A stretch of 35,125 nt of DNA from Lactobacillaceae bacterium. Its GTDB lineage: Bacteria; Bacillota; Bacilli; Lactobacillales; Lactobacillaceae. Below the pieces are notes generated by a model. It was given only the letters and a program-made list of their open reading frames with translations, did not search any database and was not told the DNA's origin. Location of the stretch: the NCBI GenBank assembly GCA_031261865.1, contig JAISIV010000027.1, forward strand, positions 1-35,125, given 5' to 3'. A program made the position numbers and the translations under genes. Below, in pieces: positions 6,720 to 30,743 of the stretch; positions within the stretch are counted from its first letter, which is position 1; each line of letters begins with the position of its first letter.

Positions 6720-7253
6720 TTGGCAATTAAAGATTACACAAAAGAACAAATATCAGAAATGTCCAACATCGACATCGCAAGAGAAATCTTGGCAGACAAT
6801 AGTAAAGAAATGCTATTCAAAGACTTGCTTGCAGAACTTAATGCCGTTCGTGGAACTGATTTGTCTGGGGATGCATTAGCAACTTTCTACGCTGATTTGA
6901 ATTCCGACGGAACTTTCATTTCATTAGGTAAACAAGAATGGGGAATGCGTTCTTGGTATGCCGCTGGTGCTATCGATGAAGCAACTCATGATGGTTTCGA
7001 TGATTATGAAGAAACTTCAAAGAAGAAGTCAGACGAAGATGTTGTTGGATTCGACGAAATTGACGAAGATGAAGACGTTATCGACACTGATGACGAAGAT
7101 GAAGACGTTGAAGAAAACGAAACCACTGATGATGGTGACGATGACGAAGATGTCGACCAAGAAGACGTTTCTCTAAACGACGATAACGAACAACTTGATG
7201 TTCTCGATGCTAACAACGATCTTGATGATCTTGGCGATGGGGATGTTGAATAA
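6720..7253 (+). CDS. rpoE: RNA polymerase delta subunit (TTG start)
   Basis: N-terminal HARE-HTH-like domain plus very acidic Asp/Glu tail; located upstream of pyrG; SD agagg. Confidence 0.9.
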   Translation: MAIKDYTKEQISEMSNIDIAREILADNSKEMLFKDLLAELNAVRGTDLSGDALATFYADLNSDGTFISLGKQEWGMRSWYAAGAIDEATHDGFDDYEETSKKKSDEDVVGFDEIDEDEDVIDTDDEDEDVEENETTDDGDDDEDVDQEDVSLNDDNEQLDVLDANNDLDDLGDGDVE

Positions 7254-7263
7254 TTAATTTATG

Positions 7264-7290
7264 GAAACCAGCTCGATGAGGTGGTTTTTA
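7264..7290 (+). terminator. Intrinsic terminator after rpoE
   Basis: aaaccagctc-gat-gaggtggttt followed by T-rich sequence. Confidence 0.75.
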
Positions 7291-7318
7291 TTTTGCCTTG
7301 GAATTTAATGATTAACTT

Positions 7319-7448
7319 TACGAATACCTAAAGGTATTCGAAATTTATTATTGACAAACTGCCGTAGAGCTACTTATTTTACGTATACATCAAGGTATCT
7401 GAAATTTATTGCCGCTAAACTGTCGTTTAGCTCCTTGTTTTTCGTATA
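7319..7448 (+). repeat. 61-bp-period tandem promoter-like repeat, array A
   Basis: CGAATA (7321), CGTATA (7382) and CGTATA (7443) are exactly 61 bp apart; intervening sequence is related to array B at ~19990-20172. Confidence 0.8.
7422..7448 (+). promoter_or_regulatory. Putative alternative-sigma (ComX/SigH-like) promoter: GTCGTT-N15-CGTATA
   Basis: GTCGTT 7422-7427, 15 nt, CGTATA 7443-7448, 9 nt to ATG 7458. Confidence 0.6.
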
Positions 7449-7457
7449 AAGAGGTAT

Positions 7458-7994
7458 ATGAATACTTCTAATATGATCCCGATTGCCATATCGTTGGTCG
7501 CAATTCTAATAAGTACGGTAAATTCATTCTTAAATTTCCGCCAAAATCGGTTTGCCAATCTGGCGTTAAGGGGTGAGAAGACAAACGAGGCAATTGACTT
7601 ATTTTTCAAAGAAGTGACCCCACTGTACAACCAATATTTAAAAAATGAATCGAAACTGACTGAGCAAGTAATTAAAAAGTTGCCAGAGGGTATGGATTCC
7701 GATAGTCCTGAACGCCTGAAGGTTGTTCTTGATGTTGTTAACAATGACTTGATTCCACAAAGGGCTCAAATTCTAAATAATTTAGAAAATGTTTCATCAA
7801 TTGCAAACAACCAGCCAATATTTCTTCGTAATCTAGAAGAGTCAATTGGGAACGATTTCGGAGAAATATATCAAAAATTTAATTACGTTTTTAGTGCTAC
7901 TTTAAGGAAAAAATTCGGTTCGATTCGAAAATTGGCGGACAAATTTTCACTGTATAATTTAGGAGATGATAAAGATGACCAAAGAACAAGCTAA
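7458..7994 (+). CDS. Uncharacterised protein with N-terminal TM segment and helical remainder
   Basis: MNTSNMIPIAISLVAILISTVNSFLNFRQ... N-terminal hydrophobic helix; long ORF. Confidence 0.75.
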   Translation: MNTSNMIPIAISLVAILISTVNSFLNFRQNRFANLALRGEKTNEAIDLFFKEVTPLYNQYLKNESKLTEQVIKKLPEGMDSDSPERLKVVLDVVNNDLIPQRAQILNNLENVSSIANNQPIFLRNLEESIGNDFGEIYQKFNYVFSATLRKKFGSIRKLADKFSLYNLGDDKDDQRTS

Positions 7995-8166
7995 TTTACT
8001 CGCGGACGAAATGCTCAAACAAATGTACGAGGATTCCAAAAAGGTTGCTGAAGAAGGTATGAATTCTTTTTACGGCATTAACCCCGATTTGGAAGATGTT
8101 GATAAAAAATATCGGGTAATTAGAAAAAATGGTGAAATTGTTTCTATCAATGGAACTCCAGTGTAG
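7975..8166 (+). CDS. Small uncharacterised protein, translationally coupled to 7458 gene
   Basis: SD ggag 9 nt before ATG 7975 (MTKEQANLLADEML...); overlaps the upstream gene. Confidence 0.65.
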   Translation: MTKEQANLLADEMLKQMYEDSKKVAEEGMNSFYGINPDLEDVDKKYRVIRKNGEIVSINGTPV

Positions 8167-8225
8167 TGGTTCAACTTATAGTGTTGAGAGAACTTTAGCC
8201 AAAGCAAGTTCAAAATTTCAAAAAC

Positions 8226-8261
8226 TTGACTATCTAAAACAACCCTAGTAATGTAAATAAG
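8226..8261 (+). promoter_or_regulatory. pyrG promoter with GGGC transcription start
   Basis: TTGACT (8226-8231), 17 nt, TAATGT (8249-8254), 6 nt to GGGCGC at 8261. Confidence 0.75.
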
Positions 8262-8279
8262 GGCGCTATAAAGCACATT

Positions 8280-8309
8280 AACTCCAATCCAATTCGATTG
8301 GAGTTTTTT
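8280..8309 (+). terminator. pyrG leader attenuator terminator
   Basis: 10-bp stem aactccaatc/gattggagtt with T run, between the pyrG promoter and its start codon. Confidence 0.85.
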
Positions 8310-8350
8310 GTTTTTTATAACACAATTCGCGCATACCTTTAAGGATAAAA

Positions 8351-9988
8351 ATGGCTGAAAATCAAACTAAACAAACTAAATATATTTTTGTTACTGGTGG
8401 TGTCGTTTCATCACTCGGTAAAGGTATCGTGGCCGCATCACTCGGCCGTTTATTAGAATCACACGGACTAAAAGTTGCTGCACAAAAATTCGATCCATAT
8501 TTGAACTATGATGCTGGAACGATGTCTCCTTACGAACACGGTGAAACGTTCGTTACCAATGATGGACTTGAAACCGATTTAGATATGGGACACTATGAAC
8601 GTTTCATGGATATTGAAACAAACTACTATTCCAACGTGACACGTGGAAAGATTAATTACGAAATTTATGAAAAAGAACGTCGTGGTGATTACGATGGTGC
8701 AACTGTCCAAGAAATTCCTCACGTTACTAACTTGATTAAAGAAAAAATGCGTCGTGCTGCTGAAACTACTGACGCCGATATTGTCATCACTGAAATCGGT
8801 GGAACTGTTGGTGATATCGAATCACAAGATTTTATGAAAGCTATCAGCCAAATGAAAGATGATCTTGGTGAAGAAAACGTCTTTTACATTCACGCTTCAT
8901 TGATCATCCAACTGAGTGCCGCCGGTGAAATGAAAACAAAGCCAACTCAACACTCTGTTGAAGAATATTCGCGTCAAACATTGTTCCGTCCGGACATGCT
9001 TGTTTTAAGAACTACTAAACCCGTTAGTGATGGTATGCGTGAAAAGCTTTCAATGTTCACCAATGTTCCAAAAAATGCCATCATCGAATCTCGTGACGCC
9101 GACGTTTTGTATGAAGTTCCTTTGAATTTACATAATCAAGGCATGGATGAAATCGTCCTTGAAAAGTTTGGTTGGAACGACAAATTCCCTCGTACTGATT
9201 TAGCTGATTGGAAGAAGATGGTCGACAAGATTAAGTCTGTCGAAAAACTTCCACCAGTTGAAATTGCAATTGTTGGAAAGTATGCTGCTTTGCCAGATGC
9301 TTATATCTCAATCGATGAAGCTTTGCGTTCAGCTGGTTATAAGAATGATGTTAACGTCAAGATCAACACAATTAATTCTGAAAACGTTAATGAAGAAAAC
9401 GTTGCGGACCTTCTTAAAAATGCCTCTGGTGTTTTGGTTCCCGGTGGTTTCGGTGTTCGTGGAACTGAAGGAAAAATCGAAGCTATTAAATATGCTCGTG
9501 AAAATAACGTGCCATTCTTCGGTGTTTGCTTAGGAATGCAGATGGCCTCTGTTGAATTCGCACGCAATGTTCTTGGACTTAAGGGTGCTAATTCAATTGA
9601 AATGGACCCTGAAACTCAATACCCAGTTATTGCTTTAATGGATTCTCAAAAAAATGTCACTAATCGTGGTGGAACTCTACGCTTGGGTGCTTATCCAGCA
9701 AAAATTCTTCCTGGTACTCATGCTTATGAAGCTTATGAACATAAGACTGAAATTTCAGAACGTCATCGTCACCGCTTTGAATTTAATATCGACTTCAAAA
9801 AGCAGTTCGAAGACGCTGGATTTGTCTTCTCTGGAACATCTCCAGATGATAAGTTGATGGAAGTTGTTGAATATCCTAAGAACCGCTTCCACGTCGCAGC
9901 ACAATATCACCCTGAATTCTTAAGCCGACCAAACCGCCCTGAAGGTTTGTATAACGAATTTGTTCAATTCGCTGCTGGCAAAAAGTAA
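8351..9988 (+). CDS. pyrG: CTP synthase
   Basis: [17 protein letters not shown]...; glutamine amidotransferase GVCLGMQ and HPEF motifs. Confidence 0.98.
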
Positions 9989-19993: not shown

Positions 19994-20172
19994 AGACGTC
20001 CAAAATTTATTATCGTCAAACTGTCGTTCGGCTCGTTATTTTGCGTATGTCTAAAGGTATCTGAAATTTATTATCGTCAAACTGTCGTTTAACTCCGTAA
20101 TGTTCGTATACACGCAGTGCATCCGCGAAACATAGTCACAAAACTGTCGTTTTGTTCCTTATTTATCGTATA
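19990..20172 (+). repeat. 61-62-bp-period tandem promoter-like repeat, array B
   Basis: Three copies of GTCGTT-N15-CGTAT at 20023, 20084 and 20146; AAATTTATTATCGTCAAACTGTCGTT shared by two units and related to array A. Confidence 0.85.
20146..20172 (+). promoter_or_regulatory. Putative alternative-sigma (ComX/SigH-like) promoter: GTCGTT-N15-CGTATA
   Basis: GTCGTT 20146-20151, 15 nt, CGTATA 20167-20172, 7 nt to ATG 20180. Confidence 0.6.
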
Positions 20173-20179
20173 AAGAAGT

Positions 20180-21538
20180 ATGGCTAATTTAACTGACTAT
20201 TCTAATACTGATTTATATATGGCAGAAAGTTCTTATACTTCTAGACCTTATAGTTTTGACAAAACTAATAAAAGACCGCCCGCTCAAGCCCAAAAGTCTC
20301 AATGGTACAAGCAAGAAAAAATAACGGACAACAAAACTGGTTACACTGCTTACTTTTTAACCAATAATCAAAACCCAAATCTGGCAACCCAGGCTTACTA
20401 TGTTGTCCGAGGTAGTGACGCTTTTGATGCTCAAAATCCTGATTGGACTGGTAATAATATTCCTTTTGCTTTAGCTGATAAGCAAGTAAAACAATCTAAA
20501 AACTTCATCAAAGATGTCCAAACAAAAATGTCTCGATACACGAACATTACCGCTTGGAATTTTACCGGTCACAGTTTAGCGACGATGGTTGTCACGACCG
20601 GTTTAAGTAATTTATCCCAAGACCAAGCAACTAAAGTTCAAGCGGCCACTTTGTTTAATGGTCCAGATGTAACCAATTCGCTCAACGTACATCAACTAAA
20701 CAATTTAAAGGACTCCGGTTTGAACGACAAAATAACTTATTACCTGAATCCGGATGACATGGTCAGCGTCTTAAATCGTTCTCAGTCTGAACAAATAGGA
20801 CATGTAAATTGGATTGACACTAAGTCGGATTACGGAACGATGGATATTGCCTCTTCACATGACTTTTATGAATATCAAGTTGTCAATGGCAAAATCAAAA
20901 CAGTTGAAAATAGCTTAGAACTGAAAACTTATATCTACGCTCAAGATGCTCTTTATCAACAGCTGATTAATCATGTTGGCAACCTCAAACTATCACCCAA
21001 AAAAGTAAAAAAGATTATTGAAACACTTGATGGAGAAAAATATGTGTCAGGAAAAATTAATTACCTGGTAAAAGAGTTTGGAAATAAAATTGATATTCAT
21101 TTGTTCTTGAAGTTTTATATGAGGTATAAAGACGCAAAAGAAATGATCGGACTGTCTAACCGAATCAACTCTTTGACTCTTCAATTGGAACACAGTGACG
21201 ATATTAAGTTAAGCGAAATTTTAGTCTCTAAAATAGAACAATACATCGGGAATTTTCTCGATAAAATTACCTTTGATACTGAAATGATCCATGTTAATAC
21301 TAGAAATAAATTACAAAAATTAATCAACGAGGCGAATATGGAACTATCAATCGCTGGATCAACCACTCAGTTCGACTATCGGTATTTTTATTCTGAGCCA
21401 CAAGAAAAAATTAACCAAAATAGTGTTTCGGTATACAAAAAGGACATGGAACAAACGCTCCACATCCTAACTAATCACGTATTTGAAATTTATAAAATTG
21501 ATGTCAATTACGCTAATAATTCATTTAAGCCAGATTAA
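20180..21538 (+). CDS. Class 3 lipase-like alpha/beta hydrolase with ~200-aa uncharacterised C-terminal region
   Basis: GHSLA nucleophile elbow, LNPDDMVS acid motif, SHDFYEY candidate His; no signal peptide. Confidence 0.75.
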   Translation: MANLTDYSNTDLYMAESSYTSRPYSFDKTNKRPPAQAQKSQWYKQEKITDNKTGYTAYFLTNNQNPNLATQAYYVVRGSDAFDAQNPDWTGNNIPFALADKQVKQSKNFIKDVQTKMSRYTNITAWNFTGHSLATMVVTTGLSNLSQDQATKVQAATLFNGPDVTNSLNVHQLNNLKDSGLNDKITYYLNPDDMVSVLNRSQSEQIGHVNWIDTKSDYGTMDIASSHDFYEYQVVNGKIKTVENSLELKTYIYAQDALYQQLINHVGNLKLSPKKVKKIIETLDGEKYVSGKINYLVKEFGNKIDIHLFLKFYMRYKDAKEMIGLSNRINSLTLQLEHSDDIKLSEILVSKIEQYIGNFLDKITFDTEMIHVNTRNKLQKLINEANMELSIAGSTTQFDYRYFYSEPQEKINQNSVSVYKKDMEQTLHILTNHVFEIYKIDVNYANNSFKPD

Positions 21539-30093: not shown

Positions 30094-30709
30094 TCATAGC
30101 TCCATAAGTTAGAAACGGTATAAAAGCCGTTTTCTTATTACCCGAAAATAACGAATAAGCAATCGTTGCAATGCAAGCTAGGATTACTGCAAGTAAAAAG
30201 TAGTGAACACTTAGCATTGATAAAAGTACCAACAATACCGGGATATCACCTTCGCCTAATTGCGCCGTGAGAATAACTGAAAAATATAAAAAGATGAACA
30301 GACTTACTAAAAATACAGGTGAGACATCTCTTAAATTTTCCAAAAATAAAAACGGTAACGGCAATAAAATCCACGAACTGCTTGTTTGATTAAAACTGTC
30401 TTCCTCGCTACAAAACAACAACAAGATGAAAACTAATAGCACGCGATAATCATCAACCGTCAAAAATAACATTCCATAAGCAAATTCGATGATTGGATAT
30501 TTGATTGCAATTCTCTGATGACAAATGGCGCATCTCCCGAAAGACATTAGCCAACCAAACACTGGTACTAATGAGATTGGTGCAATTGGCTGCCGGCAGT
30601 TGTCACAATACGAAAACCCACTTAAAGAAAGTCGTAAGTTTAGACGGTATGCCAAACACAATGTTGCAGAGGCCAAACTGGCACCTAAAATAAATAAAAA
30701 TATTCTCAT
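30065..30709 (-). CDS. comC: Type IV prepilin peptidase (ComC-like)
   Basis: CDNC...CAICHQRIAIKYPIIEFAYGMLF Zn/leader-peptidase domain and GEGDIP (GxGD) motif; MRIFLFILGASL start. Confidence 0.85.
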   Translation of the reverse strand: MRIFLFILGASLASATLCLAYRLNLRLSLSGFSYCDNCRQPIAPISLVPVFGWLMSFGRCAICHQRIAIKYPIIEFAYGMLFLTVDDYRVLLVFILLLFCSEEDSFNQTSSSWILLPLPFLFLENLRDVSPVFLVSLFIFLYFSVILTAQLGEGDIPVLLVLLSMLSVHYFLLAVILACIATIAYSLFSGNKKTAFIPFLTYGAMISQIIFQFG

Positions 30710-30716
30710 ACTTATT

Positions 30717-30743
30717 AATACGTAAAGCAGTCCGAGGAACGAC
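30717..30743 (-). promoter_or_regulatory. Putative comC alternative-sigma promoter: GTCGTT-N15-CGTATT
   Basis: Minus strand: GTCGTT 30743-30738, 15 nt, CGTATT 30722-30717, 7 nt to ATG 30709. Confidence 0.65.

Follow-up and report, generated by a model that had tools for sequence, protein, structure and literature searches.

What would two genes of no recognisable family do behind a promoter that also precedes comC? The question is raised by the interval between rpoE and pyrG in the window, by which we mean the whole 35,125-nt stretch analysed here, a contig (C148) of a Lactobacillaceae-type metagenome-assembled genome of 1.23 Mb (69% complete, with an estimated contamination of 2.7%). The assembly was examined in chosen stretches. 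Between rpoE and pyrG lie three CGWATA cores, a gene for a 178-aa protein and an overlapping gene for a 63-aa protein, making up one cassette (Table 1). The original prediction described the two products as an N-terminally anchored protein with a coupled small partner, and took them for an undescribed competence-associated pair.

Table 1. Features of the cassette, its surroundings and related com-boxed loci. Coordinates without a locus prefix refer to the window.
Feature	Coordinates	Strand	Remarks
rpoE	6720-7253		left neighbour of the cassette
Terminator-like hairpin 3' of rpoE	7261..7291	+	left edge of the cassette; RNA fold and comparison with congeners
Array unit 1, with TACGAATA (7319-7326)	7317..7377	+	degenerate, without a GTCGTT element
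Array unit 2	7378..7438	+	degenerate com box 7361-7387 at its left edge (2 mismatches, PWM 12.5 bits)
Stem-loop GCTAAA-CTGTCG-TTTAGC, then a T-rich tail	7414..7431	+	terminator-like; overlaps the upstream promoter element
Complete com box GTCGTT-N15-CGTATA with conserved AAGAGGTAT leader	7422..7457	+	profile score; box itself 7422-7448
Hairpin AGAGGTAT-ATGA-ATACTTCT	7450..7469	+	start codon in the loop; RNA fold -7.2 kcal/mol
178-aa protein gene	7458..7994	+	single membrane helix near the N-terminus (about residues 3-27), then a predicted helical domain in the cytoplasm
63-aa partner gene	7975..8166	+	overlaps the 178-aa gene; Shine-Dalgarno AGGAG 7961-7965
pyrG leader/attenuator	8252..8310	+	right flank, kept in congeners
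pyrG	8351-9988		right neighbour of the cassette
Second array, with three com boxes at a spacing of 61-62 bp	20023..20182	+	5' of the 452-aa lipase-like gene
comC (prepilin peptidase) com box	30707..30743	-	long-motif match
Type II toxin-antitoxin modules	L037:8209, L131:6791, L039:1120, L038:3505, L053:793		directly behind com boxes
Second compact type VII cluster	L044:2067-7260 (G000:C19)		two com boxes

The predicted layout of the pair was borne out, and searches of four profile libraries (Pfam, NCBIfam, PADLOC and PHROG) assigned neither protein to a family and recognised no toxin or antitoxin domain. For the 178-aa protein, hydropathy and flanking charge point to a single N-terminal helix, with the remainder in the cytoplasm. 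The second frame could start at 7966 or 7975; the latter start follows the AGGAG and agrees with that of a paralog. The pair contains no WXG100, LXG or DUF4176 domain, and no secretion genes adjoin its copies. No match to a Com family exceeded the cut-off, the best being ComGF in the C144 paralog (16.3 bits, cut-off 80, E 0.0087), and a sequence search against solved structures returned nothing significant. A copy of the pair fused in one frame was modelled, with moderate confidence, as a helical bundle with a pLDDT of 69.5; Foldseek matched this model to generic helical bundles with a best E of 0.46, and its similarity to STAT coiled coils (VIA Z 9.5, rmsd 4.7, 132 aligned residues) is within the range of unrelated helical bundles.

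The promoter array is present exactly as it had been described, with CGAATA at 7321 and CGTATA at 7382 and 7443, each 61 bp from the next, and the last core indeed completes a GTCGTT-N15-CGTATA box, which reads TCGTATAA. The short motif proves nothing, as CGWATA alone occurs 35 times in the window against 31.4 expected and is not enriched; the long motif does, with three matches to GTCGTT/CGTATA at a spacer of 12–18 against 0.04 expected. Across the assembly, GTCGTT-N15-CGTATWAAKAAGTATG with up to three mismatches was found 14 times, with no match in the control or in congeners, and GTCG-N17-CGTATWA 15 times, with one control match. Congener comGA promoters retain CGTATWA alone. The long motif precedes comGA (contig C96), comC (window, from 30743 on the reverse strand), comFA (C76), dprA (C13) and recA (C122), where DprA was identified by Pfam and the other four genes by sequence recognition.

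A promoter profile (PWM) trained solely on these five promoters of the same genome scored the window box at 40.3 bits, against a reversed-control maximum of 8.3, and 131 kb of contigs picked regardless of the motif held no site above 8. The start codon mostly lies 7–9 nt 3' of the box, and the ATG of the 178-aa gene follows it by 9 nt. Judged by its sequence, the box very probably puts the pair in a ComX-type late-competence operon; the promoter class claimed to be common with comC is thus also that of comGA, comFA, dprA and recA. The emphasis on a streptococcal box as the driver did not survive: TACGAATA is exactly where it was reported, but solely in a degenerate unit, so we rejected it in favour of GTCGTT-N15-CGTATWAAKAAGTAT as the working box. 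The arrangement resembles the streptococcal ComX/SigX regulon, where a short CGWATA-core box stands 5' of comGA, comC, comFA, dprA and recA-type genes. It differs in adding GTCGTT at a fixed spacing and an AAKAAGTAT leader abutting the start codon, and in a regulon that includes toxin–antitoxin modules and a type VII cluster.

The two upstream array units share 75% identity, and unit 1 carries a perfect 8-bp palindrome, CGAATACC-TAAA-GGTATTCG, at 7321–7340. Stretches resembling 7317–7457 precede the com-boxed lipase-like gene (78%), comFA (78%), comGA (80%), recA and YefM. In several com promoters, a stem of six pairs closes the loop CTGTCG, and its 3' arm overlaps GTCGTT; the stem arms differ in sequence yet still pair (GCTAAA/TTTAGC in the window, ACAAAA/TTTTGT at the lipase-like gene, GTCGAG/TTCGAC at recA). 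From the few sequences compared, the array looks as if a promoter unit that carries a terminator-like element had been duplicated in tandem. The leader hairpin that holds the start codon in its loop appears, by inspection, in similar form in the dprA and C28 leaders. At recA, the com box and array (L040:4974-5100) are followed by a 28-aa frame resembling the start of ssb, apparently a remnant.

In six congeners the rpoE–pyrG gap is empty: besides the pyrG promoter/attenuator it contains only a spacer or a terminator, so within the compared set the cassette is a species-specific insertion. Inspection of its flanks for mobile-element ends showed neither terminal repeats nor an integrase or a target duplication. 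Downstream of the pair, no strong terminator was found before the pyrG leader (8166–8351), and competence transcription may therefore run towards pyrG, up to the attenuator.

The genome contains five members of the pair family (the window, C28, C8, C144 and C137), and a com box precedes every one of them. The large proteins are linked by HMM E-values of 1e-71 to 2e-65. The C28 copy is the closest to that of the window (47% identity for the large protein, 60% for the small one), whereas the large proteins of C8, C144 and C137 share 19–23% with the window's and 39–46% among themselves. Third codon positions vary most in the close pairs, which indicates coding constraint; dS is saturated. The two genes overlap in the window, C28 and C144, are separated by a transposase gene/insertion sequence in C8, and are fused in-frame into a single reading frame in C137, although this fusion could be an assembly error.

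No credible relatives of the pair were found in about 600 other Lactobacillales genomes; HMM matches there with E-values of 3e-4 to 0.01 per genome were short, several contained stops, and they were rejected because about 400 genomes would yield such matches by chance. No homologs turned up in plasmids, phages or viral contigs, and a profile search of genome contigs with the pair alignment gave no match. Co-occurrence with comGA across species fails, since comGA is present but the pair missing in five congeners.

The genome carries about 18 com boxes. Apart from the five copies of the pair, the boxed set consists of five competence/recombination genes, a type VII cluster, a lipase-like protein and five toxin–antitoxin modules, namely YefM-YoeB, HicAB, two AbrB-like/PemK and one AbrB-like/ParE-like. 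Toxin–antitoxin modules without a box are also present, about three in 131 kb (C40, C10); the box is thus not a general feature of such modules, and the company kept by the pair is suggestive only. The boxed type VII cluster encodes DUF669, WXG100, YukD and a short YukC, along with a 1077-aa EssC-like ATPase that has its own box, and is possibly a competence-driven secretion system. An apparently complete, canonical-looking type VII locus without a com box lies apart from this cluster, on C50 (L149); it encodes EsaA-, EsaB-, EssB- and EssC-like proteins, DUF4176, two small helical proteins and a partial LXG-like protein.

The 452-aa lipase-like protein (gene start 20180; array and gene together 20023–21538) has a GHSLA motif, an alpha/beta and then all-helical predicted secondary structure, and a single-sequence model that is too poor to use, with a pLDDT of 33; its sole plasmid match covers 57 aa and lies beside a lantibiotic cluster. 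It resembles the type VII lipase toxin of the TslA/TilA system (PMC10730906) in the GHSLA motif and the predicted N-terminal alpha/beta, C-terminal helical layout, which is that of reverse-order type VII lipase toxins. In contrast to that system, no partner or immunity genes were recognised beside it, and the pair itself shows no resemblance.

We tentatively favour, as a reading that falls somewhat short of probable, a lineage-restricted toxin–antitoxin-like or effector/inhibitor cassette under late-competence control, one of five dispersed and diverged copies. A ComX/SigH-type sigma factor would recognise GTCGTT-N15-CGTATA at 7422–7448, the onset of competence would switch on transcription of the two-gene cassette, and translational coupling would yield the 63-aa helical partner. 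The two products may then form a complex between the anchored 178-aa protein, with its cytoplasmic helical bundle, and the 63-aa protein. The anchored protein would act on the competent cell, for example by arresting growth or division, and the small protein would restrain it, although which partner plays which role could be otherwise. As in type II toxin–antitoxin modules, small overlapping adjacent genes lie in a dispensable cassette. A membrane-anchored protein with a small cytosolic partner is unusual for that class.

Precedents are Haemophilus influenzae toxTA and Escherichia coli hicAB, single competence-regulated toxin–antitoxin operons that are both toxin-first (PMC6957337). These Sxy/CRP-S-regulated operons likewise consist of two small dispensable genes behind a competence promoter, with the larger gene first in toxTA; unlike the pair, they answer to another regulator, encode soluble toxins of known families and occur as single loci, not as a five-copy family.

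The label "competence-associated" holds for regulation, through the shared promoter, but not for a part in DNA uptake. Such a role is not supported because the pair is lineage-restricted and multi-copy, was inserted where congeners have an empty site, has one copy split by an insertion sequence, and keeps company with toxin–antitoxin modules; an effector/inhibitor pair fits better, the genes being coupled, fused once and dispensable as well. We consider it improbable that the 178-aa protein is a membrane-anchored accessory of the DNA-uptake or recombination machinery, made together with comGA and comC. The common late-competence promoter and the weak, sub-threshold ComGF match of the C144 paralog are consistent with that role, but the five comGA-bearing congeners and about 600 Lactobacillales genomes do without the pair, and its copies are five and dispersed. 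Far less credible still is a chance or vestigial promoter followed by remnant reading frames: this would agree with the lack of homologs elsewhere and the degenerate upstream units, but hardly with a full-score box, a good ribosome site, intact overlapping frames and five conserved copies whose third positions change most in close pairs.

Competence-coupled killing is an established idea, and the pair might be an immunity or accessory module that protects competent cells from toxins released by the com-boxed type VII cluster, by related strains or as the lipase-like protein. The same box drives the DUF669-WXG100-YukD-YukC genes, the EssC-like ATPase and the lipase-like protein, and diverged multi-copy paralogs are compatible with orphan immunity genes. 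Nevertheless, no copy is linked to a toxin gene, DUF4176/LXG/WXG100 matches are absent, and the predicted N-out/C-in topology, with the mass in the cytoplasm, is unlike that of the immunity lipoprotein TilA (PMC10730906), so that we hold this explanation to be rather unlikely. Slightly more doubtful is a selfish cassette which, having captured a com promoter, uses expression during competence for its own persistence at no benefit to the cell. Its dispersed copies, one of them at an intergenic site empty in congeners, and the tandem duplication of the promoter units themselves point in this direction, as does the chromosome-curing hypothesis, by which flanking recombination in transformation can remove chromosomal elements (PMC11472951). 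Against it stand the missing terminal repeats, integrase and target duplication, as well as the promoter leader common with dprA, which implies that the box may predate the cassettes.

For the toxin–antitoxin-like reading, the wider meaning that we propose is speculative and, taken as a whole, unlikely: in this lineage, the competence sigma factor would switch on toxin–antitoxin(-like) cassettes, including five copies of an undescribed two-protein membrane family, and their expression would then make loss costly or arrest the cell during DNA integration, while the competence-driven type VII cluster may kill neighbours for DNA. Loss would become costly through expression during competence, since transformation is able to remove small cassettes from intergenic sites. 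If this is true, natural competence in one Gram-positive lineage would command, besides DNA uptake, five toxin–antitoxin modules, a five-copy lineage-specific membrane pair and a second type VII cluster, extending the single examples of toxTA and hicAB to a whole regulon. It would also become testable whether competence serves to arrest the cell or to kill its neighbours, or whether selfish cassettes exploit it.
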